This document shows, piece after piece, positions 9,993 to 57,115 of a stretch of DNA of 64,000 nt. Each line of letters starts with the position of its first letter. Positions within the stretch are counted from its first letter, which is position 1. The notes under the pieces are model-generated. The model was not told the origin of the DNA and did no database searches. It saw only the letters and a list, made by a program, of their open reading frames with translations. Source of the stretch: Chrysoperla carnea (Eukaryota > Arthropoda > Insecta > Neuroptera > Chrysopidae); contig NC_058340.1 of assembly GCF_905475395.1 (NCBI RefSeq), forward strand, positions 76,362,181 to 76,426,180. The letters run 5' to 3'. The translations under genes were made by a program, and so were the position numbers.

Positions 9993-9999
9993 TTGTGTA

Positions 10000-10424
10000 G
10001 AGAATAGCAAAATTGATCAATACATGAAAACTATCAAAACTGGTTTTTTTTCAATTATAATATGAATATAATTATTTTGATAAGATTAATAAACTTTGCA
10101 CCTGAAAATAGTGAAGGACATTGTAAAAAAAATCTTTAATTTATTCTATTCTATTTTCAATAGATTGATAAACTTTCCACCTAAAAAAAATATTAGATGT
10201 GAATATCATTGTGAAAAAAATCTTTTAATTTATATAGATATTTTATTTTTAATAGTATACAAATTTATTTCACTGTATAATATTTAATATCAATTGCTCG
10301 TCCATACTGTATAGCAGTAATTAATCCATCATGCAAATACTTCTCTAAACTAGACATCCTTAAAATTCTTCAACCTAAAAAAATATTTGATGTTAAGCTC
10401 ATTTTAAAAAAAATCTTCAATACA

Positions 10425-10498
<74 letters not shown>

Positions 10499-10521
10499 CA
10501 TCTATATATATATATATATAT

Positions 10522-10557
<36 letters not shown>

Positions 10558-10982
10558 TGTATTGAAGATTTTTTTTTAAATGAGCTTAACATCAAATATT
10601 TTTTTAGGTTGAAGAATTTTAAGGATGTCTAGTTTAGAGAAGTATTTGCATGATGGATTAATTACTGCTATACAGTATGGACGAGCAATTGATATTAAAT
10701 ATTATACAGTGAAATAAATTTGTATACTATTAAAAATAAAATATCTATATAAATTAAAAGATTTTTTTCACAATGATATTCACATCTAATATTTTTTTTA
10801 GGTGGAAAGTTTATCAATCTATTGAAAATAGAATAGAATAAATTAAAGATTTTTTTTACAATGTCCTTCACTATTTTCAGGTGCAAAGTTTATTAATCTT
10901 ATCAAAATAATTATATTCATATTATAATTGAAAAAAAACCAGTTTTGATAGTTTTCATGTATTGATCAATTTTGCTATTCTC
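10000..10982. repeat. 983-bp near-perfect palindrome centred on a TA microsatellite
   Basis: The left arm starts GAGAATAGCAAAATTG at 10000. The right arm ends with the exact inverse CAATTTTGCTATTCTC at 10982. The arms are about 430-490 bp and nearly identical throughout; for example, the same 63-codon open frame occurs inverted at 10096-10287 and 10695-10886. The centre (about 10425-10556) is a long (TA)n run. The arms encode nothing recognisable. It abuts an old Polinton fragment on the right and a tRNA-like relic on the left. Confidence 0.9.
10425..10556. repeat. (TA)n microsatellite at palindrome centre
   Basis: An almost pure TA dinucleotide run is interrupted by TACATATACATCTATA and AAAATA. 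Low-complexity Ile/Tyr open frames across it are not genes. Confidence 0.95.
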
Positions 10983-11122
10983 ACCCAAAAAATCTGCCTA
11001 TATTAAAAAGTGGAAACGATTTGGCTTCCATCCACAGATAAAGAAAAATGAAAAAGATAATTTTGAAGAGAAGCCGTAAAAATACAGGTGAGAAGCATTT
11101 CTAATCATGTTTTATTTAAGCA

Positions 11123-12058
11123 TTGCAATTTTTTACACTATGCGCTTTAATTAAAGATCTTCCATCACACCGTTCTCCTTCACCGCCGCCGAAAATATTT
11201 AATGATGGAACATCACCATCAACATCTAGAGCTAATGATGAAGATTCTCATCCAAGCTGCACACCCATCCCTCCATCAGAAGAAAGCAATAACTGGATTG
11301 CCATAACGTGCTTCAATAACAGAGTATTTGCAGGAAGATTGGACAACAACGAAAATAGTAAGAATCTTAAAACTTTTTTTAAGCAGAAGGCAACATTAGT
11401 TCTTAATAAAATTATGGAGTACTTATCATTACATAACTCAATTAAAATTTTACTGGGTTTAAAATGTGATTTCATAATCAAAAAAGGCGATGCAGAAGTT
11501 ACCGATAATTTTCACTTTGTGTTAAAACTTGTACGTTACGATCTTGCCTCTGATTTTAACACATGGTATAATGATTCATTTACAAATCTTGAAACTCGCT
11601 TGGAATATTTTCAACAAAGAGGGTCGGGTGCTGCTTTAGATAAAATTTTATGTTTAGAATTAAATATTGCAAAATTCGATCCTATGAAAGGAGGGAGTTA
11701 TATTGCACTCCCCCAAAAAATTATTCATAAAAAAGCTTGCATCAACATTAAAAATAATGATGATTTCTGCTTCGCCTATTGTTTAATAGCACATTTTAAG
11801 CAACCACTTAAAAATCTTCATATTGCTGCAAAATATCTACCAGATTTTAATAATTGCTGTATATTTGATGATTTTAATCCTTTAAATAATAACAACCAAA
11901 ATTTGCATCAAATATATGATTTTAGGGGTGTTGAATTTCCTATGAAAATAAAAGATATCCCCAAAATTGAAAAAAACAATGACTTTTCGGTAAATGTTTA
12001 TGGGTTATCAGATTCGGGTCTTGTAAATGGTCCATATAAATTTATTAATGATCAGTGA
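11123..12058 (+). pseudogene. N-terminal region of a Polinton-type PolB, orphan fragment
   Basis: This 311-codon open frame shows no polymerase motifs. It is colinear with the N-terminal region of the intact PolB at 24566-28461. Shared landmarks are an RGSG/RDSG-W/A-ALD block, a KCRKAVINVQN-type block (here KKACINIKNNDDFCF), and a KFPMSLDQINKFEK-type block (here EFPMKIKDIPKIEKN) followed by a SVNVYG strand. The N-terminal 60 residues are Ser/Pro-rich, like a linker. After the stop the homology continues in another frame to about 12210 (HYCLITNLSRL, then a CDRC zinc-finger start), so the gene is frameshifted. It ends before any exonuclease or palm motif. It belongs to a different PolB lineage from the 24-kb gene. 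Confidence 0.75.
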
Positions 12059-12322
12059 TGATACTAAATTTCATTATTGTTTAATTACAAATTTATCAAG
12101 ACTCTGTTCATCTCAAAAGTCAAATCATGGGAGTGCAAAATTCTTCTGTGATAGATGTCTTCAACATTTCAATGAGAGACAAAAATATAATGAACATATG
12201 CGTTAAATGCGTATACATTAAAGCAGAAAAAAAACTCTTTCTTCTGAGGATGATGAGCGTGTGGTTTTAGAAAATAAAATTAACACATTAGCTTTAGGTC
12301 ATAAGGAGATAAATAATTTGTA
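12059..12322 (+). pseudogene. Frameshifted continuation of the PolB N-terminal fragment
   Basis: In the frame shifted from the 311-codon segment, it reads DDTKFHYCLITNLSRLC and then a CDRC..HFNER..YNEHM zinc-finger-like stretch, as in the same position of the intact PolB (CDRCLNYF..LQQH near residue 382). A stop follows near 12206, then a further coding-like segment (SSEDDERV) up to a stop near 12322. An AATAAA-type AT-rich tail follows. Confidence 0.6.
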
Positions 12323-12393: not shown

Positions 12394-12723
12394 TGTTATA
12401 ATAAATCCTTTTGGGGTATCCATTGAGAATCCTTGAACCCCAACCATTTTACAAGCACCATATTTTTCCTCCTTTTTAAAATTTTTTCAACTAAATATAT
12501 ATCTGGATAATTTGTTTTCAATAATTCATATTGGTAGAATGATGGTAATATTGGATTTCCTTTCAAGTCTTCCAATAGATATGTATATGGATGTGATGAT
12601 TGTACTTTTGCAATCTTGAAAACTTCCATTGTCCAATTGGGCGTATATTTCTTTTCAAATATGTGTTTGTATTTGGATATACGTACAAAATCACCAAGTG
12701 ATCAATCTTTTAGACAGTTTGCG
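12394..12723 (-). pseudogene. C-terminal part of a Polinton-type retroviral-like integrase
   Basis: On the minus strand an SH3-like segment (SLGDFVRISKYKHIFEK, near 12700-12655) leads into the open frame 12629-12396. This has YLLEDLKGNPI, a YPDIYLVEKIL strand and a chromodomain-like VKWLGF..SQWI ending. This order (SH3-like barrel then chromodomain) is the C-terminal half of integrases carried by Polintons and chromoviral elements. There is a stop just upstream of the SH3-like part, and the catalytic DDE core is absent. It converges tail-to-tail with the PolB fragment at 11123-12322, as expected for the remains of one Polinton. Confidence 0.75.
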
Positions 12724-21774: not shown

Positions 21775-22366
21775 ACAAGTGAAAATAAACAATTGACTGA
21801 GTAAATTGTTGAAATACCATGTATAGACAGTGTTGATGACACAATCGTTTGTTTTTTGACGCCACGTAAATAAAAAAAGATATCCACTTTTAAATAGCTA
21901 CACACACACTGATATTCCCATATTAATGCATACTATAAAATTTGCACCTAATAAGCGCCCTCGTGGGAAACAGTGACATTTGCAAAAAAATGTTTTCAAC
22001 AAAAGTTGTTTATTTTTTTATACAGAACATTTTTTACATTTAAACTTTTGTTATATCTCTAACGGTTTACAAGATGGGTCCTACAGACCCAAGACCCAAT
22101 TGACCTATGATGCTCATTTACGAACTCGACCTCACTTTTTACGTCCTGAGTACGCTATAAAAATTTCATCTTGATATCTCTTTTAGTTTTTCAGTTATCG
22201 TGTCCACAGACGGACGGACAGACGGACGGACAACCGGAAATAGACTAATTAGGTGATTCTATGAACACCTATACCAAAACTTTTTGCATAGCATCAATAT
22301 TTTTAGGCGTTACAAACTCTGGACTAAACTTAATATACTATGTATTTCATATATACATGGTATAAA
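21775..22366 (-). repeat. Family A interspersed repeat, full-length inverted copy
   Basis: It begins ACAAGTGAAAATAAACAATTG and ends ATATACATGGTATAAAAA, with all internal blocks present. It faces the plus copy at 23079, making an inverted pair with a spacer of about 710 bp. Confidence 0.8.
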
Positions 22367-23078: not shown

Positions 23079-23338
23079 TTTATGCCATGTATATATGAAA
23101 TATACATAGTATATTAAGTTTAGTCCCAAGTTTGTAACGCTTAAAAATAATGATGCTAGGAAAAAAATTTTGTCATAGGTGTTCATAAAATCACCTAATT
23201 AGTCCATTTCCGGTTGTCCGTCCGTCTGTCCGTCCGTCTGTGGACACGATAACTCAAAAACGAAAAAAGATATCGAGCTGAAATTTTTACAGCGTACTCA
23301 GGACGTAAAAAGTGAGGTCAAGTTCGTAAATGAGCATC
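23079..23338 (+). repeat. Family A repeat, left half, split by the Polinton-class element
   Basis: It runs from ATGCCATGTATATATG to TTCGTAAATGAGCATC, then stops where the element begins. The missing part resumes at 35026 with ATAGGTCAATTGGGTCTTGGG. Other copies read GTAAATGAGCAACATAGGTC across this point, so the insertion site is exact. Confidence 0.9.
23333..23338. repeat. Left 6-bp target-site duplication (AGCATC)
   Basis: AGCATC precedes the AGTAGT end of the element and recurs directly after its other end at 35020-35025. A 6-bp duplication is what Polinton integrases produce. Confidence 0.85.
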
Positions 23339-23745
23339 AGTAGTATAGTCATGTACCTCCTGGCGCAGTTTGACCTCAAGTAACCCCGCTTGGATGGTAC
23401 ACTTTTCCAAAAAGGGCAAACCTAGGTGAATGTTGGAAACCTCGGAAGTTGGATGACGTCATTGACCAATAGTAAATCAAGATGGCGTTGGGAGGTGTGG
23501 TGGGGCGTGGCTGACAGAGCGTTAGTGTGTTTCTTGGTGGAAGTGGGGCTTAAAGTGGTGGGCGTGGTTGACAGGAGTGTGTTTCTTGGAAGTGGGGGTT
23601 AAAGGGGGCGGGAATTGGACGTTAGATGAGATAATCGAGCCCACTCCTGGCGCAGATGGATGGTACACTTTTCAAAAAAGGGCAAACCTAGGTGAATGCG
23701 AAGTTAGAGGGGATAGATGACGTCATTGACCAATAGTAGCGCTGT
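23339..23745. promoter_or_regulatory. GC-rich terminal zone with CCAAT, TGACGTCA and GC-box-like motifs (left)
   Basis: TGACGTCA occurs at 23454-23461 and 23718-23725, each followed by TTGACCAATAG (a CCAAT box in inverse orientation). GGGGCGTGGC, GGGCGTGG and GGGGGCGGGA lie between them (about 23500-23610). The block GATGGTACACTTTTC..AAAGGGCAAACCTAGGTGAATG occurs twice (from about 23395 and 23657). Such sites bind CREB/ATF, NF-Y and Sp/KLF factors in animals. A promoter or replication-enhancer role is inferred. Confidence 0.55.
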
Positions 23746-24200
23746 ATGCACACTTGAAATTTACATAATAAAAATAGATGTTCAAACTTGTTTGAATGGA
23801 CTTTGATCTTAAAATAATTTTACACGTGTCAGCAATTCTCAAGAATATGTTGAAATAGATTTGACCTTGAAAAATATGATATCATCATCTTGTTACAAGT
23901 TCAAACTTGTTTGAAATAATTTTACATTTGTCAAAACACGTGACCGGATGTTAATATTTTTTTATGATTAAGTGATGTAATATGACACTTGAAATTTACA
24001 TAATAAAAATACATGTTCAAACTTGTTTGAATGGACTTTGATCTTAAAATAATTTTACACGTGTCAGCAATTCTCAAGAATATGTTGAAATAGATTTGAC
24101 CTTGAAAAATATGATATCATCATCCTGTTACAAGTTCAAACTTGTTTGAATAAAAATACATGTTCAAACTTGTTTGAACTTGTTTAAACTTGTCTGAATT
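23746..24200. repeat. Subterminal direct repeats with TTCAAACTTGTTTGAA quasi-palindromes
   Basis: A block of about 165-170 bp (CACTTGAAATTTACATAATAAAAATA.., TTCAAACTTGTTTGAATGG, TTTTACACGTGTCAGCAATTC, ATTTGACCTTGAAAAATATG) is present twice, from about 23752 and 23990. TTCAAACTTGTTTGAA recurs near 23783, 23905, 24018, 24136 and 24162. The inverse is at 33710-34230. Iterated palindromes inside a terminal repeat could be protein-binding sites; that is inference. Confidence 0.7.
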
Positions 24201-24277
24201 CCAAGAAAAAATAATTAGTTTGAATTACGATTGTAAAAATATCAAATTACAACTTTTTTAGTGGGGGGGGATAATGC

Positions 24278-24285
24278 TATAAAAA
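24278..24285 (+). promoter_or_regulatory. Candidate TATA box for the PolB gene
   Basis: TATAAAAA lies 288 bp upstream of the PolB start codon, just past a G-run. A further candidate initiator TCAGTT is at 24334-24339, but that spacing is longer than usual. The same box is inverted at 33638-33645 in the right arm. Confidence 0.4.
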
Positions 24286-24507
24286 GTGATGTACGTAGCT
24301 GTTGAAGTATCTCTTTTGAAATTCACCTTTGCTTCAGTTAGTTTATTATTATTATTATTATTATTATTTTTTTGTTTTTGGTATATTTATTATTCTAAAC
24401 TTAGTCTATATATTTTATACAAAAAACAAATATTACTCAGTTGTAAGTTAACTTTAGTGTTGAACGTTCGGTAACGTATATTTTGCTTAGTATTTGAAAA
24501 TATAACG

Positions 24508-24565
24508 GTAAGTGTATAAATTTTTTAAATAATATTGTGAAACTTAAATATAATTTTTTTGAAAG
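24508..24565 (+). other. Probable 58-nt intron in the PolB 5' leader
   Basis: The donor GTAAGT at 24508 and acceptor TTTTTTTGAAAG at 24565 bracket an AT-rich 58-nt segment directly before the start codon. Its size matches the other introns of this gene (62, 59 and 67 nt), which supports the call. Confidence 0.5.
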
Positions 24566-27500
24566 ATGGACACCTACGAACAAAATGTTATGCAAACGCT
24601 AAACGCGGTACCTCAAGGTGGTAGCACTGATATGATGAAGAAAGTGGAGAGAGTGTTGAGGCTCATCAAGACGGTGGAGGAAGCTGAGCGATGGATGATA
24701 CTTAATAAGCAGAACATCCGCTTATTCAAAAAGATGTTGATGTTAAAGAAAGAAAATCCTCTGCGTCTTGAAGCTAATATTGGACTTTGTAAATCATACC
24801 AGCGGCAACTTCACCGACTGCGATTAGATTTAGTTAAGCAAGGTGGTGGAGTCACCAAAAAACAAAATCGACATCTAATCTGGGAGACAATTGAAACCCA
24901 CCATCAGGGCAGGGTGAAGACTGGTATGATTACAAATTTGGATTATAAAGATCCAAATATATTTTTCAACCGGGCATTTCCAATGTTTAGAAGACACGTT
25001 CGGCGTGAGCTAGTGAAGCATCCCCTCAAGGTAAGTAAAATTTAAGATTTATAATTTAAATAGTCTAATGAGATCTTGAATTTTTTTTTCAGGTGTATAT
25101 TATGTTCACGGGCAATTTTATTAAGCCCATCACCAAAGAGGAGGATTTGAAAACTTTTATAACGTCGGCCAAGGAAATGTATCTGACAACGGACATGCAG
25201 GAGTGGTACAATGATCATGTCAAAAACTATTTGCTGAAAAAATTGGAAGAATTCCAGGAACGCGATAGCGGTTGGGCTCTTGACATGATCATAAATATTC
25301 GAGTCCACATGAATAAGTACTCTCCGATCACAGCTGGAACATTTTGCGAACTACCATCTGCAATTAAATGTAGAAAAGCTGTGATTAATGTCCAGAATGA
25401 TGACCAACATTGCTTTTTATGGTCGATAATGTCAGCACTTTACCCGGTTGAAAAGGATCCTCAACGTTTAACTAAGTACCAGCACTATAAATATCATTTA
25501 AAATATGATGGATTAAAGTTCCCCATGTCTCTGGATCAAATTAATAAATTTGAAAAGATGAACCCGCAGCTATCGATTAACGTGTACGGCTACAAAGATA
25601 CGTTTCTACGTGGTTTGGAAATTTTCCCTGTACGCGTTAGCTCGAACACTGCGGAGAAGAAAATTCATCTATTGGCTGTGGAGAATGGGAACAGTCACCA
25701 CTTTTGCTGGATAAAAAATTTAGCAAAGTTGGCTCGATCGGGTGTAACAAAACACCGCCGCCAAATTTATTTATGTGATCGATGTCTCAACTATTTTGCA
25801 ACAGAAAGCAAACTCCAACAGCATTCAGTAAATTGTGGTGAAAAAGAAGCGGTGCGGGTACGAATGCCTGAAACTGATGACGAGCGGTTCGTTGAGTTTC
25901 AGAAATTTTCTCATCAAGAACCAATTCCATATATTGTATATGCAGATTTTGAGGCGTTATTGGTACCACAACATCATGAAGACATGGAAATGGATCATGG
26001 GTCTTATACGCAAAATATTCAAAAACATGTACCCTACAGTGTAGGTTACTATGTTCATTGTACCCATGATCCCAACCAATCGTTTTATAAGGCATACCGT
26101 GGTACTGATTGCGCAAAATGGTTTGTTAAAGAACTGGAACAGGTTGCGTATACATTGGAAAAGAAAATTAAACACGTTGAACCAATGATACCGCTCACCA
26201 TCGAACAAGAAATGGAGTTTCTGTGTGCAGAAAAGTGTCATATTTGTAAAAAATCTTTTACACCAACAAATAGTATCCGCGTGCGTGACCATTCACACAT
26301 CACAGGTCTGTATTAATATTTATTATTGTTAAAATTTTATCTAATTTAAATATTTATTTTACAGGTTATTACAGAGGTCCAGCACACCAAATTTGTAACT
26401 TAAATTATCAAACTTCAAAGGTAATACCTGTTGTGATGCATAATTTAAGCGGATATGATGCACATTTTATAATAGAACCTCTGCTAACAGAATTCGATGG
26501 TCATGTTGATGTGTTGCCCATCAACAAAGAAAAGTACATCAGTTTTACCAAACACGTCTCGGACATTCAATTACGATTCATTGATTCCTTTAAGTTTCTC
26601 TCTGAAAAATTAGATAATCTGGCTTCCTATTTAGATAATGATAAAAAAACTATTTTACATAGAGAGGTAAGTCATAAAAAATATAAATAAATAAATACTT
26701 TATACAGAGCCGTATCTTTTTTTTTATCTGCAGGTCAGTGATGATGAACAATTTCAATTGTTAACAAGAAAAGGTGTATTTCCTTATGAATACATGTCTA
26801 GTTGGGAACGTCTTGATGAGGTAAGCTTACCCACAAAAGAGGCGTTCTACAGTGCATTAACAGATGAGCACATAACGGATCAGGATTATAATCATGCTAT
26901 ACAAGTATGGAATACATTTGGTTTACATACACTAGGTGAATACTCTGACCTGTATATGAAAACTGATGTGTTTCTACTTGCGGACATTTTTGAAAATTTC
27001 CGTAAAACTTGTTTGCATAAATATGGTCTTGATCCAGCTCACTCTTATACACTAGCTGGCTATACATGGGAAGCCATGTTGAAATACACCGATAAGAAAC
27101 TGGAATTGTTCACTGATGTAGATAAGTTTCTGTTTATCGAGAGAGGAATCAGAGGTGGTGTGAGTCATTGCTCTAATCGCTATGCAAAAGCTAATAATAA
27201 GTACATGACAGAGGGGTATAATCCAAATGAAACACAACATTATTTGATGTATTACGATGTGGTGAATGAATATGGAGCAGCAATGTCTACATCTTTACCC
27301 ACTGGAAATTTCGAGTGGGTTGACACACCAGACGTCATGGAAATTGCAGACGATTCACCAGTCGGTTTCATTTTAGAAGTGGATCTGGAAATACCCCAAA
27401 ATCTGCATGATTACTTTAGCGATCTACCACCATGTCCGGAGATAGCAAAACCACCAGGATCAAAACAAAAATACCTGCTTACAACTCTGTACAACAAGAC

Positions 27501-28461
27501 CAGATATATCGTGCACTATAGAATTTTAAAATTATATATACAACTTGGTGTGAAAGTAACAAAATACCATCGTGTGTTACAGTTTGATCAATCTCCATGG
27601 TTGAAATCATACATTGATTTCAATACCGAAATGCGTAAGAACGCAACGAATGATTTTGAAAAATCATTGTTCAAATTGATGATCAATGCAATATTCGGTA
27701 AAACCATGGAGAATATTAGAAAACACCGGGTTGTTTACATACGAAAAAATTGGGATGGAAAGCATGGAGTAAAAAAATTGATTGCTAAGCCCAATTTTCA
27801 TAGTATGACAGTGCTCGATAATGACGTCAGTATTGTAGAGTTGAAAAAGACTGAAATATTTTTAAACAAACCAATCTATGTAGGCTTCACTATTTTGGAT
27901 GTATCGAAGACGTATGTGTATGATTTTCATTATAATTACATGTACCCTCGATACGGTCGTGAAAATGTTAAGCTTTTATACACAGATACCGACAGTTTAG
28001 TTTATGATATATCAAATATTTCCGTCTATGACGTCATGAGGCAGGATATTGATCGCTTTGATACTGCTGACTTCGCACTTGATAACATCTATAAAATACC
28101 GCTTCGTAATAAGAAAGTAAAAGGTTTAATGTCTGATGAAAACAATGGTGAAGTAATGTTGGAATTTGTTGGATTGCGAAGTAAGATGTATACAGTTCGG
28201 GTGCAAAACAAGACAGAGACGAAAAAATCAAAAGGTCTCAAGAAGTCAGCAATTCGAAAGCTTACTTTTGATGATTATAAAAAATGTTTGATAGAGAATC
28301 GGAAATCGTATAATCATCAACAAAGCATTCGATCGAAGCGCCACAAAATTCATACCATCAAACAGCAGAAAGTGGGCTTATCACCATTTGACCAAAAACG
28401 ATACATTACTCACAATTCATGTGAAACAAAACCATGGGGCCACTATAGCATTATTTGTTGA
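24566..28461 (+). CDS. Protein-primed-type family B DNA polymerase (Polinton PolB), four exons, intact
   Basis: Exons are 24566-25030, 25093-26305, 26365-26666 and 26734-28461, all with GT-AG borders and consistent phases, giving 1235 residues. Order of parts: a basic helical N-terminus (1-155); the arthropod PolB N-terminal region (about 230-350); a C2H2-like finger CDRC..H..C (about 382); Exo I IVYADFEAL (D near 440); a treble-clef CHICKKSF..RDHSHITG insert (about 534-560); Exo II HNLSGYDAHF (584-593); an Exo III-like SFKFLSEKLDNL; palm motif A YYDVVNEYG (D near 835), motif B KLMINAIFGK (about 974) and motif C YTDTDSLV (1078-1081); then KMYTVRV and a C-terminus ending PWGHYSII. All catalytic carboxylates are present. 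Motif A has Glu where Leu is usual. The enzyme should copy the linear element from its ends using a protein primer. Exons 1-3 lie in the terminal repeat, exon 4 in single-copy DNA. Confidence 0.92.
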
Positions 28462-28463
28462 GT

Positions 28464-28521
28464 GTAAGTATTTTATATTTTTATGTTTTTAATATTTAGC
28501 TAATTTTTGCTGTTGTTTCAG
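28464..28521 (+). other. Probable 58-nt intron in the PolB 3' leader/UTR
   Basis: The donor GTAAGT starts two bases after the PolB stop codon, and an acceptor CTGTTGTTTCAG ends at 28521. The size fits the gene's other introns. It suggests that the transcript continues into the downstream small gene. Confidence 0.4.
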
Positions 28522-28703
28522 AAATGTGTCCTGCTGTTGTTGTGATGATCCTCAAAGTGGTTCGGTATTGTGATAGGTGTACAAACAATTGATAGAGTAG
28601 TGCGCATGAACAATTGATAGAGTAGTGGTGGGGGTGTCAAAAAAACTGATAGTTAGGTAGAATTATTGTAGAAAACAATTTAGTGTTAGTTAAAACATAC
28701 AAA

Positions 28704-29129
28704 ATGCAAGACTTTGGTAATCATAAAAGTGATAACAACTGTATTGTTAATATGATTAAAGATAATTGTAGTTTAAGTACTATAAACAATATGTTAACAA
28801 AGTATTTTAAAACATTAGTTAATATGGCAATTAAATGTGGTCGACCGGAAATTTTAAACTACCTTATTGATAAGGTAGAACAAATGGCCTTAGAAGTGAA
28901 ATTTTCCCCATCGTCAGACGATGAAGACAAACAAATTTGGAACTGGATTTTAAAAAATATCCACTCTGGACAAACAGATGGAATTGTAGGACTATCCATT
29001 TTTGAACAATCTTACTACAGTGTATTTACATCAGACGAGTTATCCGACTATGTTCAAGTGAAAGAAATGATTGAAAATTATCTTATGAGGAAAGATGATG
29101 ATGATGACAATGGACACTTTTCAGAATAA
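28704..29129 (+). CDS. Unknown acidic-tailed protein, about 141 residues
   Basis: The open frame extends from 28683 (148 codons). The Met at 28704 (MQDFGNHKSDNN) has the context ACAAAATGC and is the more likely start. I do not recognise a family. The middle (MAIKCGRPEILNYLIDK) resembles one helix pair of an ankyrin repeat, but a single unit is weak evidence. The C-terminus is strongly acidic (a DDDDD run before NGHFSE). There is no signal peptide or membrane segment. It lies about 240 bp after the PolB stop, same strand, and AATAAA follows at 29225-29230. It is present once, in the single-copy centre. Composition is more gene-like than that of surrounding open frames, so it is probably real. 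A role in replication is only a guess from position. Confidence 0.6.
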   Translation: MQDFGNHKSDNNCIVNMIKDNCSLSTINNMLTKYFKTLVNMAIKCGRPEILNYLIDKVEQMALEVKFSPSSDDEDKQIWNWILKNIHSGQTDGIVGLSIFEQSYYSVFTSDELSDYVQVKEMIENYLMRKDDDDDNGHFSE

Positions 29130-29224
29130 TAATTATAATGTATTTTCGATAATTTATAAATATATATTTTTTAAATATTATTATAATACAACTCTGTTTT
29201 TATATGTTATAGATAAAATTTTAC

Positions 29225-29230
29225 AATAAA
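29225..29230 (+). terminator. Candidate polyadenylation signal AATAAA
   Basis: AATAAA lies 96 bp after the stop of the small gene, followed by a T-rich tract. It is the first canonical signal after both plus-strand genes of the element. Confidence 0.45.
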
Positions 29231-29345
29231 AATAATAATTTTACAATGTGATATTTTTTATTTTTATTTTTATTTTTTTTTATAAAACACAAATATGTTC
29301 GCAAAAACGGTCCACTATGACAAATTTTTTATTGTTACAAGTATG

Positions 29346-29549
29346 TTCATAAAAACGATCCACTATAAAATAAGACTTTTTTGTCAATATATGAATCATG
29401 TAAAGAGTCGAACACTAACCACCTGACTTTAACGTTGGAGCTAAGACCTTTTCCACTAAATAAATGTTTGGATCGTGAACTTTTTGTAATTCTTCAGCAT
29501 AGAAACCACCCTTTATATCTTCGTTGCTGTTATCCTTCAATAAGTATAC
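29346..29549 (-). pseudogene. Relic of a Polinton integrase C-terminus inside the element
   Basis: On the minus strand it reads VYLLKDNSNEDIKGGFYAEE, then LQKVHDPNIYLVEKVL. After a small frameshift near 29435 it reads VKVRWLVFDSLHDSYIDKK to a stop near 29347. This is the same order as the fragment at 12394-12723 (YLLED.., YLVEKIL, VKWLGF..) and matches the end of the SH3-like domain plus chromodomain of Polinton integrases. The catalytic core is missing: upstream (higher coordinates) the sequence passes straight into the 16-bp minisatellite. It is the clearest sign that this element descends from an integrase-bearing Polinton. Confidence 0.75.
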
Positions 29550-29980
29550 AGGTCTGTATCTAAACAGGTCTGTATCTAAACAAGTCTCTTTCTAAACAGG
29601 TCTCTTTCTAAACAGGTCTCTTTCTAAACAGGTCTGTATCTAAACAGGTCTCTTTCTAAACAGGTCTCTTTCTAAACAGGTCTCTTTCTAAACAGGTCTG
29701 TTTCTAAACAGGTCTCTTTCTAAACAGGTCTGTTTCTAAACAGGTCTCTTTCTAAACAGGTCTCTTTCTAAACAGGTCTCTTTCTAAACAGGTCTGTTTC
29801 TAAACAGGTCTGTTTCTAAACAGGTCTGTATCTAAACAGGTCTCTTTCTAAACAGGTCTCTTTCTAAACAGGTCTGTTTCTAAACAGGTCTCTTTCTAAA
29901 CAGGTCTGTTTCTAAACAGGTCTCTTTCTAAACAGGTCAAAACCAGTATTAAACAGGTCAAAACCAGTATTAAACAGATA
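29549..29980. repeat. 16-bp minisatellite (unit AAACAGGTCTCTTTCT)
   Basis: About 26 units of 16 bp alternate mainly between CAGGTCTCTTTCTAAA, CAGGTCTGTTTCTAAA and CAGGTCTGTATCTAAA. It ends in two CAAAACCAGTATTAAA units. Contiguous repeats without unique spacers rule out a CRISPR-like array. It lies exactly between the integrase relic and the second PolB relic. Confidence 0.95.
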
Positions 29981-29982
29981 CA

Positions 29983-30300
29983 GACCAGACCCCAAGGTAG
30001 TGTATTATAGGAACCAAGTATATTGTATCACTTGTCATCATAAGGACTAAGAGCAATTTTTGTTTGAGTTTGAGTATAAAGTTTAAGTTTTTCAGATTTA
30101 ATAAGGTTTTGATTAACCGATATCTCTTTAAAGTTCTCCAAACATTCAACATAATCTTCAAATGTTATTTTCATACTAAGAACCGACCTTTTAACTCCCT
30201 TAGCCTCTTTTGTTAACCCAATATTATTAGATTCTTGTACAATATTCCCATGTTCAAATGCGGCATCATCATGTGAGTAATGGTTGAAAACGAGGTGTAT
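29983..30300 (-). pseudogene. C-terminal relic of a second, diverged PolB on the opposite strand
   Basis: The minus strand from about 30300 reads through FEHGNIVQESNNIGL, then EAKGVKRSVLSMKITFEDY, VECLENF, LKLYTQTQTKIALSPYDDK, a stop, and YNILGSYNTLPWG. The intact PolB has the same series near its end (KGLKKSAIRKLTFDDYKKCL.., VGLSPFDQKRYI.., KPWGHY), but only some residues are shared. It is therefore from another PolB lineage, not a copy made by the terminal repeat. The stop replaces an expected Arg codon and is probably a C-to-T change. It has the same orientation as the half-PolB in the right arm, with the 21-bp minisatellite between. Confidence 0.8.
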
Positions 30301-30351
30301 TTTGCTATATAAAATTCATTAGATCTACATACATGTATTCATTTTATCAAT

Positions 30352-31042
30352 TTTATTCCGATTTTGCTCCGACTTTCGCCGATTTTACTCCGGTTTTCAC
30401 CGATTTTACTCCGACTTTCGCCGATTTTACTCCGGTTATACTCCGGCTTTCACCGATTTTACTCCGACTTTCGCCGATTTTACTCCGATTTTCACCGATT
30501 TTACTCCGACTTTCGCCGATTTTACTCCGGTTTTACTCCGGTTTTCACCGATTTTACTCCGACTTTCACCGATTTTACTCTGGTTTTCACCGATTTTACT
30601 CCGACTTTCACCGATTTTACTCCGGTTTTCACCGATTTTACTCCGACTTTCGCCGATTTTACTCCGGTTTTCACCGATTTTACTCCGACTTTCGCCGATT
30701 TTACTCCGGTTTTCACCGATTTTACTCCGACTTTCACCGATTTTACTCTGGTTTTCACCGATTTTACTCCGACTTTCACCGATTTTACTCCGGTTTTCAC
30801 CGATTTTACTCCGACTTTCGCCGATTTTACTCCGGTTTTACTCCGGTTTTCACCGATTTTACTCCGACTTTCACCGATTTTACTCTGGTTTTCACCGATT
30901 TTACTCCGATTTTACTCCGACTTTCGCCGATTTTACTCCGGTTTTCACCGATTTTGCTCCGACTTTCGCCGATTTTACTCCGGTTTTACTCCGGCTTTCA
31001 CCGATTTTACTCCGGCTTTCACCGATTTTACTCCGGCTTTTT
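30352..31042. repeat. 21-bp minisatellite (unit CACCGATTTTACTCCGGTTTT)
   Basis: About 33 units of 21 bp run with alternations CCGGTTTTCACC / CCGACTTTCGCC / CCGACTTTCACC and a few shortened units. Since 21 is a multiple of three, long open frames exist on both strands (for example 30333-31115 and 30364-31044). They are repeats of seven residues such as FTDFTPV and have no promoter or conserved start, so I do not call genes. Confidence 0.95.
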
Positions 31043-31070
31043 AATTTTTGATAAAGTTATTATAAACTTG

Positions 31071-33357
31071 TTATTTAATTATATTTGTTTTCCTCAAGTA
31101 ATGGATTATAGATAGTATTTCTCTTCTGATGTTTGTAGAATGTAGTCTTCTTAATTTATCAATTATTATATTACGATCACTATTGGAATCAATATTTTTT
31201 TTTTTTTTTTTTTCATAAGTTTTCAATACTTTATTTATATTTTTTTTATGACTTACCTCTCTATGTAAAATAGTTTTTTTATCATTATCTAAATAGGAAG
31301 CCAGATTATCTAATTTTTCAGAGAGAAACTTAAAGGAATCAATGAATCGTAATTGAATGTCCGAGACGTGTTTGGTAAAACTGATGTACTTTTCTTTGTT
31401 GATGGGCAACACATCAACATGACCATCGAATTCTGTTAGCAGAGGTTCTATTATAAAATGTGCATCATATCCGCTTAAATTATGCATCACAACAGGTATT
31501 ACCTTTGAAGTTTGATAATTTAAGTTACAAATTTGGTGTGCTGGACCTCTGTAATAACCTGTAAAATAAATATTTAAATTAGATAAAATTTTAACAATAA
31601 TAAATATTAATACAGACCTGTGATGTGTGAATGGTCACGCACGCGGATACTATTTGTTGGTGTAAAAGATTTTTTACAAATATGACACTTTTCTGCACAC
31701 AGAAACTCCATTTCTTGTTCGATGGTGAGCGGTATCATTGGTTCAACGTGTTTAATTTTCTTTTCCAATGTATACGCAACCTGTTCCAGTTCTTTAACAA
31801 ACCATTTTGCGCAATCAGTACCACGGTATGCCTTATAAAACGATTGGTTGGGATCATGGGTATTATGAACATAGTAACCTACACTGTAGGGTACATGTTT
31901 TTGAATATTTTGCGTATAAGACCCATGATCCATTTCCATGTCTTCATGATGTTGTGGTACCAATAACGCCTCAAAATCTGCATATACAATATATGGAATT
32001 GGTTCTTGATGAGAAAATTTCTGAAACTCAACGAACCGCTCGTCATCAGTTTCAGGCATTCGTACCCGCACCGCTTCTTTTTCACCACAATTTACTGAAT
32101 GCTGTTGGAGTTTGCTTTCTGTTGCAAAATAGTTGAGACATCGATCACATAAATAAATTTGGCGGCGGTGTTTTGTTACACCCGATCGAGCCAACTTTGC
32201 TAAATTTTTTATCCAGCAAAAGTGGTGACTGTTCCCATTCTCCACAGCCAATAGATGAATTTTCTTCTCCGCAGTGTTCGAGCTAACGCGTACAGGGAAA
32301 ATTTCCAAACCACGTAGAAACGTATCTTTGTAGCCGTACACGTTAATCGATAGCTGCGGGTTCATCTTTTCAAATTTATTAATTTGATCCAGAGACATGG
32401 GGAACTTTAATCCATCATATTTTAAATGATATTTATAGTGCTGGTACTTAGTTAAACGTTGAGGATCCTTTTCAACCGGGTAAAGTGCTGACATTATCGA
32501 CCATAAAAAGCAATGTTGGTCATCATTCTGGACATTAATCACAGCTTTTCTACATTTAATTGCAGATGGTAGTTCGCAAAATGTTCCAGCTGTGATCGGA
32601 GAGTACTTATTCATGTGGACTCGAATATTTATGATCATGTCAAGAGCCCAACCGCTATCGCGTTCCTGGAATTCTTCCAATTTTTTCAGCAAATAGTTTT
32701 TGACATGATCATTGTACCACTCCTGCATGTCCGTTGTCAGATACATTTCCTTGGCCGACGTTATAAAAGTTTTCAAATCCTCCTCTTTGGTGATGGGCTT
32801 AATAAAATTGCCCGTGAACATAATATACACCTGAAAAAAAAATTCAAGATCTCATTAGACTATTTAAATTATAAATCTTAAATTTTACTTACCTTGAGGG
32901 GATGCTTCACTAGCTCACGCCGAACGTGTCTTCTAAACATTGGAAATGCCCGGTTGAAAAATATATTTGGATCTTTATAATCCAAATTTGTAATCATACC
33001 AGTCTTTACTCTGCCCTGATGGTGGGTTTCAATTGTCTCCCAGATTAGATGTCGATTTTGTTTTTTGGTGACTCCACCACCTTGCTTAACTAAATCTAAT
33101 CGCAGTCGGTGAAGTTGCCGCTGGTATGATTTACAAAGTCCAATATTAGCTTCAAGACGCAGAGGATTTTCTTTCTTTAACATCAACATCTTTTTGAATA
33201 AGCGGATGTTCTGCTTATTAAGTATCATCCATCGCTCAGCTTCCTCCACCGTCTTGATGAGCCTCAACGCTCTCTCCACTTTCTTCATCATATCAGTGCT
33301 ACCACCTTGAGGTACCGCGTTTAGCGTTTGCATAACATTTTGTTCGTAGGTGTCCAT
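31071..33357 (-). pseudogene. Inverted half-copy of PolB (exons 1-3) in the right terminal repeat
   Basis: The exons are 33357-32893, 32830-31618 and 31558-31257, with the same splice sites and no stops or frameshifts. It covers residues 1-660 of the left gene, differing at about two residues (A for V in exon 1; N for C in exon 2). The homology ends about 30 bp into intron 3. Reading on through the donor adds a 61-residue Lys-rich tail to a stop at 31071, giving a potential product of about 721 residues. It has the N-terminal region, zinc finger, exonuclease motifs I-II and treble clef, but no palm. It has its own TATA box. Whether it is expressed as a separate protein or is only a passenger of the terminal repeat is unknown. 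Confidence 0.8.
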
Positions 33358-33637
33358 CTTTCAAAAAAATTATATTTAAGTTTCACAATATTATTTAAAA
33401 AATTTATACACTTACCGTTATATTTTCAAATACTAAGCAAAATATACGTTACCGAACGTTCAACACTAAAGTTAACTTACAACTGAGTAATATTTGTTTT
33501 TTGTATAAAATATATAGACTAAGTTTAGAATAATAAATATACCAAAAACAAAAAAATAATAATAATAATAATAATAATAAACTAACTGAAGCAAAGGTGA
33601 ATTTCAAAAGAGATACTTCAACAGCTACGTACATCAC

Positions 33638-33645
33638 TTTTTATA
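33638..33645 (-). promoter_or_regulatory. Candidate TATA box for the inverted half-PolB
   Basis: It is the inverse of TATAAAAA at 24278-24285, in the same relation to the start codon at 33357. Confidence 0.35.
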
Positions 33646-34191
33646 GCATTATCCCCCCACTAAAAAAGTTGTAATTTGATATTTTTACAATCGTAATTCA
33701 AACTAATTATTTTTTCTTGGAATTCAGACAAGTTTAAACAAGTTCAAACAAGTTTGAACATGTATTTTTATTCAAACAAGTTTGAACTTGTAACAGGATG
33801 ATGATATCATATTTTTCAAGGTCAAATCTATTTCAACATATTCTTGAGAATTGCTGACACGTGTAAAATTATTTTAAGATCAAAGTCCATTCAAACAAGT
33901 TTGAACATGTATTTTTATTATGTAAATTTCAAGTGTCATATTACATCACTTAATCATAAAAAAATATTAACATCCGGTCACGTGTTTTGACAAATGTAAA
34001 ATTATTTCAAACAAGTTTGAACTTGTAACAAGATGATGATATCATATTTTTCAAGGTCAAATCTATTTCAACATATTCTTGAGAATTGCTGACACGTGTA
34101 AAATTATTTTAAGATCAAAGTCCATTCAAACAAGTTTGAACATCTATTTTTATTATGTAAATTTCAAGTGTCATATTACATCGCTGACTCA

Positions 34192-34224
<33 letters not shown>

Positions 34225-34320
34225 AACATCCGGTCACGTGTCTTGAATTTTATCATGTATATTTAAAGTGTCAAATTACAATATTTTTCAAGGTCAAATC
34301 TATTTCAACATATTCTTGAA

Positions 34321-34985
34321 AATTGCTGACTAATGTCAACGTCCCGCCCCCCCGTTCACTCCCCGTCAAGCATCACTATTGGTCAAAGCCAATGACGTCA
34401 TCAATGCTTAGGCAGCCATTATTCTCCTCCACCACACCTCCCGACTCCATCTTGATTTTACTATTGGCCAATGCCGAGGTTTCCAACATTCACCTAGGTT
34501 TGCCCTTACGTCCCGCCTCCTGTTCACTCTCCGCCACTATTGGTTAAAGCCAACCCCCCCCCGTTTAGCCATTCCTCATCCCACCACACCTCCCAACGCC
34601 ATCTTGATTTTTACAGCGCTACTATTGGTCAATGACGTCATCTATCCCCTCCAACTTCGCATTCACCTAGGTTTGCCCTTTTTTGAAAAGTGTACCATCC
34701 ATCTGCTCCAGGAGTGGGCTCGATTATCTCATCTAACGTCCAATTCCCGCCCCCTTTAACCCCCACTTCCAAGAAACACACTCCTGTCAACCACACCCAC
34801 CACTTTAAGCCCCACTTCCACCAAGAAACACACTAACGCTCTGTCAGCCACGCCCCACCACACCTCCCAATGCCATCTTGATTTACTATTGGTCAATGAC
34901 GTCATCCAACTTCCGAGGTTTCCAACATTCACCTAGGTTTGCCCTTTTTGGAAAAGTGTACCATCCAAGCGGGGTTACTTGAGGT
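34321..34985. promoter_or_regulatory. GC-rich terminal zone with CCAAT, TGACGTCA and GC-box-like motifs (right)
   Basis: TGACGTCA is present at 34393-34400, 34633-34640 and 34897-34904, in the last two cases directly preceded by ATTGGTCAA. Further ATTGG cores lie near 34379, 34464 and 34543. GGGGCGTGGC- and GGGCGGGA-type motifs recur in inverse orientation. The segment CATTCACCTAGGTTTGCCC appears three times, so this end is itself a small tandem array of one regulatory-looking unit. Confidence 0.55.
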
Positions 34986-35019
34986 CAAACTGCGCCAGGA
35001 GGTACATGACTATACTACT

Positions 35020-35025
35020 AGCATC
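35020..35025. repeat. Right 6-bp target-site duplication (AGCATC)
   Basis: It follows the terminal ACTATACTACT of the element and matches 23333-23338 exactly. Family A sequence resumes in register right after it. Confidence 0.85.
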
Positions 35026-44109: not shown

Positions 44110-44928
44110 TATAACGTGTTCTGTTATTAACTGCAGAAACCTAACTTCCCAAAATAAGCTCATCAAGAGCAACAAAAAAACTCTTTTCCAAATTTGAATC
44201 TGGGCCTTCATTTGGGAGCTACAGGTATGACAAAAATTGATAAATTTGAATATTCACTGACTATCATTCGATAACCAGTAGCCAATGATAATCAGAAGAT
44301 ATTAGTAAATTTTTTTTAAATAATATTCAACTAAGGTAGGGATTTTTAAAAATTATATCATGATTCGATTGTATTATATTATTTTGCAAAAACATTAAAT
44401 TATTGCACGTAAACAAACAAACTATGGGACAATAATTATAAGTTGTTTACTTATAATTATTATTACTTTCTCAGAATAATAGAATAAAAAATGTATAAAA
44501 TTATTAAATTGTCCCACTTTTAATATTTTTATTCTATTATTCTGAGAAAATAATAATTATTATAAGTAAACAACTTATCATTGGACCTAAGAAAACAAAC
44601 CACACTTGTCACATAGTTTGTTTGTTTACATACAATAATTTAATGTTTTTGCAAAATAATATAATCCAATCAAATCATGTTATAATTTTTAAAAATCCCT
44701 ACCTCAGTTGAATATTATTTAAAAAAAATTTACTAATATCTTCTGATTATCATTGGCTACTGGTTATCGAATGATAGTCAGTGAATAATCAAATTTATCA
44801 ATTTTTGTCATACCTGTAGCTCCCAAATTAAGGCTCAGATCCAAATTTGGAAAATAGTTTTATTGTTGCTCTCTTGATGAGCTTATTTTGGGAAGTTTGG
44901 TTTCTGCAGTTAATAACAGAACACGTTA

Positions 44929-44930
<2 letters not shown>
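44110..44930. repeat. 821-bp palindrome ending in a TA microsatellite
   Basis: TATAACGTGTTCTGTTATTA at the left end is the exact inverse of TAATAACAGAACACGTTATA at the right. The arms of about 380-400 bp keep high identity with a few indels, meeting around 44520. A (TA)n run (44931-44988) follows the right end. The left arm overlaps an old dispersed repeat (43985-44190, also seen near 16100 and 16800), so the palindrome may derive from that sequence by inverted duplication. Confidence 0.85.
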
Positions 44931-55511: not shown

Positions 55512-57115
55512 AACAAGTGAAAACTAACAATTGACTGAGTAAATTATTTACATACTATGTATAGACAGTGTAGATGTCGCCATCGTTTGTTTTTTGACGT
55601 CACATAAATAACAAAATATATCCACTTTTAAATAACCACACACACATATAACTCATATTCCCATATAATACATATTATAAAATTTGCACCTATTTAGCGT
55701 CCTCGTGGGTAAACAATGATGTTTACAAAAAAATGTTTATAATAAAAATTGTTCATTTTTTTATTAGGAACATTTTTTATATTTAAACTTTCGTTCTATC
55801 TCTAACGGTTTACAAGGTGGGTCCTACGGACCCAAGACTCAATTGTCCTATATTGCTTATTTACGAACTCGATCTCAATTTTTATATCCTGAGTATGATT
55901 CAGTCAATATAGACGAAAAAAAGGCCGGACCTGGAAAAAATTACAATACTCGATCTGCGGTTATGGATCGTTAGGGGGGCATGTAAATAACTTAAAAAAA
56001 AATTAAGAGAATTTTTCGTTCCGCTGTTTTTGAGAAAATCCAAAAAAAATGGGGAAAAAAAATTTGGAATGCGTTTTTCTCGGAATCTATTGGTTTAAGG
56101 GAAAAGTTTTTCAAATAAAAAATGTAGAAGACATTGTCAGCTACATTTTATGTCATTGGAGCAACGTCATACGAGTTAAATTACAAAAAGTAGGTGGCGT
56201 TAAAGTATAAAAAAAAGGTTTTTCACGATTTTCATTAAGAAAAAATGATGTTTTTGTAAAAGTGTAAATGAGAAAGTTGTTTGACTCAAAATTAGCTTCA
56301 ACTTTTATTTAAACAATTTTTATGAAAAACTTACCGTTTCCGAGCTATAGTAAAACAATTTATGTTTAAAATAAACCAAGAAAATAAAAAGGAAATCAAG
56401 TACTCCTTTTCAAAATTTAAAAAAACTTAACTTTCAGATTTTTTAGCAAGCTGTATTTCAAAAACGGTAAGTTTTACAAAAAAATTGTTTAAATAAAAGT
56501 TGAAGCTAATTTTAAGTCAATCAACTTTCTCATTTACACTTTTACAAAAACATCATTTTTTCTTAATGAAAATCGTGAAAAACCTTTTTTTGATACTTTA
56601 ACGCCACCTACTTTTTGTAATTTAACTCGTATGACGTTGCTCCAATGACATAAAATGTAGATGACAATGTCTTCTACATTTTTTATTTGAAAAACTTTTC
56701 CCTTAAACCAATAGATTCCGAGAAAAACGCATTCCAAATTTTTTTTCCCCATTTTTTTGGATTTTCTCAAAAACAGCGGAACGAAAAATTCTCTTAATTT
56801 TTTTTTAAGTTATTTACATGCCCCCCTAACGATCCATAACCTCAGATCGAGTATTGTAATTTTTTCCAGTCAAAATGCCAGATTTACTGTACCAGTACGC
56901 TATAAAAATTTTATCTTGACATCTCTTTTCGTTATTGTGTTATCGTGTTGACAGACAGACGGAAAGACGAGCAGACAACCGGAAATGGGTTAATTAGGTG
57001 ATTCTGTGAACACCTATATCAAAATTTTTTAGTAGCATGAATATTTTTAAGCGTTATAAACTTGGGACTAAACTTAATATACTATGAATTATTTCATATG
57101 TACATGGTATAAAAA
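55512..57115 (-). repeat. Family A repeat, minus copy split by a foldback element
   Basis: It begins ACAAGTGAAAACTAAC. The copy stops at CCTGAGTA (55895) and resumes at CGCTATAAAAATTT (56898), ending TACATGGTATAAAAA. The gap is filled by the palindromic insert 55896-56893. Confidence 0.8.
55896..56893. mobile_element. 998-bp foldback element inserted in family A
   Basis: Arms 55931-56342 and 56457-56869 are nearly perfect inverses, starting CTGGAAAAAATTACAATACT, with a loop of about 115 bp. AGTA flanks both sides (55892-55895 and 56894-56897), a possible 4-bp duplication. The outermost 35 bp are less well matched (TTCAGTCAAT versus TACAGTAAAT). The 78-codon minus frame at 56534-56770 and its mirror are arm sequence, not genes. 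Confidence 0.85.

Follow-up and report, generated by a model that had tools for sequence, protein, structure and literature searches.

The stretch of DNA analysed here, a window of 64,000 nucleotides from the lacewing Chrysoperla carnea (contig NC_058340.1, positions 76,362,181 to 76,426,180 of the forward strand), contains an insertion of 11.7 kb at positions 23339-35019, which is, as judged from its sequence, a defective, end-duplicated and non-autonomous Polinton derivative without integrase and capsid genes. Polintons are virus-like mobile elements. The tips of the insertion are exactly inverted (AGTAGT...ACTACT); the left border consists of GAGCATC followed by the element start AGTAGTATAGTC, and the right border of the element end GACTATACTACT followed by the flank AGCATCATAGG. 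The following features delimit the insertion and its two arms (coordinates refer to the window).

21823 to 22366, minus strand: copy of a host repeat without insertion (empty-site paralogue), about 1 kb from the element
23333 to 23338: left target-site duplication (TSD) AGCATC, present as a single copy in the empty paralogue
23339 to 26691, plus strand: left arm, 3353 bp, with the terminal inverted repeat (TIR), PolB exons 1-3 and part of intron 3
31230 to 35019, minus strand: right arm, 3790 bp, an inverted copy of the left end with PolB exons 1-3, without exon 4
35020 to 35025: right TSD AGCATC, a perfect match to the left one

Joining the two flanks rebuilds an empty site which is 91% identical over 550 bp to the host repeat at 22366-21823 and runs uninterrupted through one AGCATC; it also matches further copies of the host repeat within the window at lower identity. 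Because the joined flanks match the host repeat through a single AGCATC, the element arrived as one clean insertion. Between the two arms there are 9 substitutions in 3353 bp and two 2-bp indels, and the right arm is longer by about 437 bp (34172-34612), which are missing from the left arm. One end of the element is therefore doubled in inverted orientation around a unique middle. The inverted tips, the perfect duplication, the host repeat rejoining in register and the near-identical arms had already been described in an earlier reading of this DNA (the sequence-only reading) and were all found as described. Its assignment to the Polinton class, inserted with a 6-bp TSD, is likewise supported by the tips, the TSD and the type of the DNA polymerase PolB, which is encoded in four exons.

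24566 to 25030, plus strand: PolB exon 1, open frame
25093 to 26305, plus strand: PolB exon 2, with a zf-MYST-like finger slightly under the Pfam cut-off
26365 to 26666, plus strand: PolB exon 3, DNA_pol_B_2 (E=3.6e-8)
26734 to 28461, plus strand: PolB exon 4, polymerase core, predicted fold nearest to phi29 DNA polymerase

The four exons, which were analysed singly and never as a joined protein, have GT/AG borders and compatible phases and add up to 1235 codons (155 + 404.3 + 100.7 + 575). Pfam gave nothing above its cut-off for exons 1 and 4, and a search of the PDB by sequence with exon 4 returned no match; a DFE motif in exon 2 is presumably the exonuclease motif. Relatives of exon 4 are numerous (E<=0.001 for 6981 of the 7982 candidates scored); the named organisms among the 120 relatives listed are nearly all insects, and the best of those listed is LOC123301296 of C. 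carnea, with 82% identity. Exon 4 was modelled with AlphaFold2 (mean pLDDT 83.6), and in a comparison of the fold with the PDB each of the eight best matches is a phi29 polymerase structure, led by the one in complex with terminal protein (E=2e-12). As judged from these similarities and the modelled fold, PolB is a family B DNA polymerase of the protein-primed type, its priming mode being predicted. Motif A reads DVVNEYG, with a Glu directly before the conserved Tyr. The motif is visible in 110 of 120 relatives inspected, 101 of which have Leu at the position of this Glu, so the activity of the enzyme should not be taken for granted. The uninterrupted PolB of 1235 amino acids with all motifs, as proposed previously, thus stands with regard to its four open exons and consistent splice borders, but has to be qualified for motif A. 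The second 5' half of the gene in the right arm (exons 1-3 at 33357-31257) shows two amino-acid differences and no stop codon, and ends inside intron 3. A possible intron directly follows the PolB stop codon (28462-28525, GTAAGT...TTTCAG), which suggests either a spliced 3' untranslated region or a link to the open reading frame downstream (ORF141).

Gene content was read throughout for one longer relative from the same genome, E16 (C6:10.99 Mb, 16.4 kb, TSD CACAGG). Its near-identical TIRs of about 1.3 kb do not include PolB, and it codes for one PolB with the same exon-frame series, a homologue of ORF141, a convergent integrase (rve, 2.1e-12), a double-jelly-roll major capsid protein (MCP, 1.3e-95), an A32-type ATPase (3.4e-9) and a PLA2-like protein (6.8e-15). 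A further reading frame beside the capsid-module genes, for which Pfam gave no match, is one that we take to be protease-like. Note that the integrase of E16 lies in two overlapping frames, so E16 may be defective as well. Between its arms, the window element contains the following features.

28704 to 29129, plus strand: ORF141, 141 amino acids, function not assigned; E16 and each arm of a palindromic element on C5 (see below) have homologous frames
29350 to 29591, minus strand: C-terminal/chromodomain stub of an integrase in two frames (profile E=1.1e-13 and 0.005)
29548 to 29938, plus strand: tandem array of 24 copies of a 16-bp unit, in E16 flanked by the integrase region on one side and the capsid module on the other
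29989 to 30315, minus strand: C-terminal stub of a PolB from a second, different lineage
30358 to 31041, plus strand: 21/42-bp CCGATTTTACTCC tandem array
31042 to 31229, plus strand: interior segment of the family, ending at the right-arm junction

A protein search with ORF141 yielded no database homologue, nor did Pfam give anything above its cut-off. The integrase profile was derived from 34 of 59 relatives of another Polinton remnant, located in the window at 12399-12701 (minus strand), and the C-terminal stubs are assigned to integrases because the same stretch ends the E16 gene whose other frame matches rve; positions 29366-29547 are 87.6% identical to the C-terminal part of this E16 gene. 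The second PolB stub, with its profile match at 30031-30315 (E=1.2e-18), shows 52-63% identity to its six best-scoring relatives versus 41% to the element's own exon 4. Set against E16, the window element is missing the body of the integrase as well as the capsid module, and a PolB end takes the place of the ATPase end: DNA of the E16 genes for MCP, the protease-like protein (PRO-like), the PLA2-like protein and the ATPase found no match in the window (E<=1e-15, at least 60 bp), and an Rfam scan of the window gave 0 matches. The element thus shares with Polintons the TIRs with AG tips and the 6-bp TSD, but retains the rve integrase only as a C-terminal stub in a total of 11.7 kb; because a whole integrase and the capsid, ATPase and protease genes were not found, it is filed as a defective derivative rather than a complete Polinton. 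A simple internal deletion was rejected: it would explain why the integrase body and the capsid genes are missing, but it leaves the inverted copy of the PolB end unexplained.

The window also contains the second, older Polinton remnant mentioned above, in which a diverged PolB N-terminal half with a broken frame (11120-12320, plus strand, about 33% identity) runs into the integrase C-terminus with a weak chromodomain match at 12399-12701. A near-perfect palindrome of about 1 kb with a centre of AT dinucleotides lies directly upstream of it (9993-10988, 98.4%), and other foldback repeats are located at 44110-44930 and 55931-56869.

The 559.5-Mb genome assembly holds relatives of the window element with two different ends as well as symmetric ones. 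When it was queried with the outermost 408 bp of the TIR, 40 of 258 candidates being scored, 65 matches were obtained and paired by eye into eleven elements, both ends being typed from sequence pieces; the structures reported here and below, symmetric as well as asymmetric, with their TSDs, arm identities and centres, are direct observations on this assembly. Eight of the eleven are asymmetric, with a PolB end and an ATPase end in 13.8-16.4 kb, and three are symmetric (the window element, C6:1.43 Mb and C6:3.74 Mb). Two forms of tip occur: the window element has AGTAGTATAG, and the majority of the other copies that were read have AGTAGAAGAG. A ninth asymmetric element came from an interior search and was typed without its outermost left tip (C3:2.04 Mb); it is integrase-less, with the ATPase kept. 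By its ATPase end, a 663-bp unit is present three times in tandem, two copies of which directly match the integrase C-terminal stub (L062, G000:C3:2039900-2046400). Sequence through the integrase region was read at 12 loci out of 40 scored, the window among them, and five of the 12 show the arrangement of integrase stub and 16-bp array; one of the five shares exon 4 with the window at 99.7% identity; integrase loss is therefore probably older than the duplication of the end. At another locus, two PolB 5' ends flank one TIR and diverge, like a head-to-head fusion via a common end (L024, G000:C1:138302773-138306157).

The duplicated end itself is private to the window element among the places scored, since with a query laid across the arm junction at 31230 none of 40 other matching places (of 177 candidates) spans it. 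All of them match one side only; 36 end at 31230, two end earlier, and two extend 17-19 bp further. Further mirror-image elements were obtained by searching with the PolB and ATPase ends. With PolB exons 1-3 as query (40 of 136 candidates scored), one more inverted pair with equal arms was found on C5, and the ATPase end (40 of 157 candidates scored) gave three inverted pairs, on C6 (1.43 Mb), C4 and C1. Symmetric elements thus total six, four of them with perfect TSDs; the PolB end is doubled in the window and on C5, the opposite end in the remaining four. Six out of 15 should not be taken as a frequency, because the later symmetric elements came from searching for symmetry.

The element at C5:63608482-63622018 is a PolB/PolB palindrome of 13.5 kb (TSD TCTGAG), each arm of which contains a TIR, PolB, a homologue of ORF141 and the integrase stub, the arms meeting in the 16-bp array. 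They differ by 3 substitutions in about 4750 compared bases, a comparison without the 2 kb per arm that hold exons 1-3, and both match window exons 1-3 at 92%; the frames of exon 4 and ORF141 are open, and the left and right flanks are dissimilar. Its counterpart at C4:50535770-50553162 is a capsid/capsid palindrome of 17.4 kb with the TSD GTAGTA. The stretch from the ATPase to the capsid gene is present in each arm, a 252-bp piece of the integrase gene lies at the centre, and PolB gave no match. The arms of this palindrome show 0 substitutions in 7115 matched bases and 22 gap positions, with about 1.4 kb per arm outside the comparison. The element at C6:1.43 Mb (10.6 kb, TSD TATAGA) has the ATPase/PLA2 end doubled, is made up of sequence 99.4-99.5% identical to the right end of E16 and gave no match to PolB, and a 6.0-kb element at C1:139.11 Mb is symmetric for the ATPase/capsid end. 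The sixth, at C6:3.74 Mb (L048/L049/L054, G000:C6:3740103-3753057; 13.0 kb), is mirror-image up to its centre, with inner arms of 99.7% identity and no match to PolB or MCP; its contents are small open reading frames without assignment, integrase stubs and long tandem arrays. A candidate third PolB/PolB pair (C6:3854061/3868952, 3.85-3.87 Mb) was rejected, as its interior belongs to two different neighbouring elements.

Palindromic reads are a known artefact of long-read sequencing, and a hairpin read or a collapsed repeat could produce a false inverted copy with arms as nearly identical as these. We consider such an assembly or library artefact extremely improbable, as judged from several independent loci, the lack of similarity between left and right flanks at three symmetric loci, the perfect TSDs at four, and the differences between the arms inside the window and C5 elements.

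The sequence-only reading had interpreted the insertion as a PolB-only element, representing a separate life-style that replicates itself by PolB and enlarged ends and borrows its integrase. PolB is indeed the only whole one of the known genes, next to no whole integrase or capsid set, and an integrase would have to come from elsewhere, since only a stub remains; the integrase stub, the stub of a second PolB and the repeated exons 1-3 had been missed. A self-replicating mobile family of this kind could claim the second PolB/PolB element on C5 with its different TSD, and the recurrence of the stub/array arrangement with an exon 4 of near-identical sequence. However, the search for several copies of the same structure with different TSDs turned up no second copy of the window junction among the 40 other places scored, and the two PolB/PolB elements differ in centre and arm length. 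Moreover, nine related elements combine a PolB end with an ATPase end (eight of the eleven paired ones among them), the integrase-less element at C3:2.04 Mb is still asymmetric and retains its ATPase, and E16 contains the Polinton gene set. With asymmetric relatives sharing related ends, the stub of a lost integrase and a junction private among the places scored, a separate PolB-only lineage is unsupported and seems very unlikely. The opposite possibility considered earlier, a one-off deletion, is too weak an explanation in view of the C5 element with its own TSD and the four elements symmetric for the other end.

Two of the palindrome centres point to snapback (fold-back) synthesis on single-stranded intermediates. 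At C1:139.11 Mb, the arms meet at 6 bp of exact inverted microhomology with a loop of about 70 nt, and at C4:50.54 Mb at an overlap of 13 positions with a loop of about 290 nt. Among random fold-back points in the parental sequences (200,000 trials each), 6 exact positions occur in 0.21-0.25% of cases, 7 exact positions in 0.07-0.09%, and, if a single slip is allowed, 13 positions in no more than 0.006%. By eye, the centre of the C5 element is a loop of about 33 nt in the 16-bp array, whose units hold the self-complementary sequence CTGTTT...AAACAG. The centre sequences on C1, C4 and C5 thus fit a single strand which folds back and primes its own copying. We therefore propose, with moderate confidence, that the window element is a non-autonomous Polinton derivative whose PolB-bearing left end was doubled in inverted orientation by snapback synthesis on a linear intermediate of replication in single-stranded form. 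Single strands would be set free by protein-primed strand displacement starting at the TIRs. On a molecule from which the capsid module and the body of the integrase were already missing, a 3' end at about 31229 would anneal near 26691 and be extended to the left tip. This would produce a linear molecule whose two tips are identical and each bear an origin, with an unpaired middle of 4.5 kb, to be inserted with a 6-bp duplication by an integrase predicted to come from other Polintons. A short fold-back loop would instead yield a near-perfect palindrome, as on C5 (PolB/PolB) and C4 (capsid/capsid).

Several observations weigh against this snapback proposal. The window element is itself the weakest case, since its junction shows a microhomology of 0-1 bp and implies a loop of 4.5 kb. 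The homology at the C4 centre is imperfect, with one gap, one mismatch and a longest exact run of 7 bp, and the parental sequences for the fold-back control were taken from E16, which is a relative. The C1 element has no TSD and a truncated left tip, and the element at C6:3.74 Mb has two different tips (AGTAGAAGAG and AGTAGTATAG), no TSD and outer arms of only 92% identity. The TM-score of exon 4 to phi29 polymerase is moderate (about 0.47). Finally, chromosomal repair between the two TIRs could yield the same product without any extrachromosomal stage: an asymmetric Polinton would have inserted first, and an internal chromosomal break would have been repaired by strand invasion from one TIR, the PolB end being copied onto the other arm by break-induced replication or gene conversion, with end-joining at 31230. 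Such a repair in situ would automatically keep the original TSD, could draw on homology of the kind present in the 1.3-kb near-identical TIRs of E16, and agrees both with the minimal microhomology at the window junction, as in end-joining, and with a junction common to no other matching place. On the other hand, it needs a separate event at each of six loci and, taken alone, gives no reason to expect short loops and inverted microhomology in the palindrome centres. We regard such a repair, the main rival of the snapback proposal, as a possible, though doubtful, origin of the window element.

The replication mode of Polintons is largely inferred from their gene content. In PMC4061559, it is 'suggested'. 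If the snapback proposal is true, mirror copies with their own TSDs and fold-back centres would provide a datable and countable chromosomal record of single-stranded strand-displacement intermediates. They also show how one element could part its replication genes from its capsid genes, a step possibly taken by segmented insect viruses with Polinton-type polymerases.

Among known systems, the window element resembles Polintons/Mavericks in its PolB of the protein-primed type, its long TIRs with (AGT)2//(ACT)2 tips, its 6-bp TSD and a same-genome relative with integrase, MCP and ATPase; this end motif is listed for vertebrate Mavericks in PMC8097293. It differs in keeping just PolB of the known genes plus one small open reading frame, in a TIR of 3.35 kb enlarged by the copy of the PolB end, and in its size (11.7 kb versus 15-20 kb). 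Nine Polintons without MCP, PRO and ATPase have been described (PMC4028283); the capsid module is lost in both cases, the integrase being lost in addition in the window element, and the part of this account that was available does not mention an end duplication or a mirror-image structure. Among the literature matches listed, with subscription literature largely uncovered, no title or start of an abstract reports palindromic Polintons, and, as judged from these matches, the repeated occurrence in a single genome of mirror-image Polintons made from either end is new. Searches of viral contigs with exon 4 alone and with the integrase C-terminus gave nothing useful, while an alignment of PolB led to a viral metagenome contig (IMGVR_UViG_3300028392_002905, L001) with a PolB reading frame of 1286 amino acids (44% identity to exon 4), an rve integrase tail to tail with PolB, and matches to A32 ATPase, GIY-YIG and Peptidase_S74.

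According to PMC4061559, the Bidnaviridae are insect viruses with TIRs and a Polinton-derived PolB; that their genome consists of two molecules is stated in abstracts among the literature matches. They are single-stranded viruses with parvovirus capsid genes, and the likeness to the lacewing elements is one of features. It is an unlikely extension that lacewing Polintons split into complementary PolB/PolB and capsid/capsid half-genomes, which replicate, are packaged and insert with mutual help, en route via fold-back replication to a bipartite virus such as a bidnavirus. Defective genomes of adenoviruses, which are protein-primed linear replicons and do not integrate into chromosomes, carry inverted duplicated ends; none of the titles listed in the literature searches concerns them. 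Terminal sequences are likewise duplicated in the lacewing elements, but only these are integrated chromosomally. Similar in form are the left- and right-end snapback genomes (5'-SBG and 3'-SBG) of adeno-associated virus (AAV), of which symmetric and asymmetric types are reported in PMC8235507. Both systems comprise self-complementary half genomes from either end, symmetric or looped and falling into replication and capsid classes, and they differ in that AAV is a packaged parvovirus, whereas the lacewing forms are chromosomal insertions of a PolB element. The window junction, with its 0-1 bp of homology and its 4.5-kb middle, resembles the asymmetric class of these snapback genomes.

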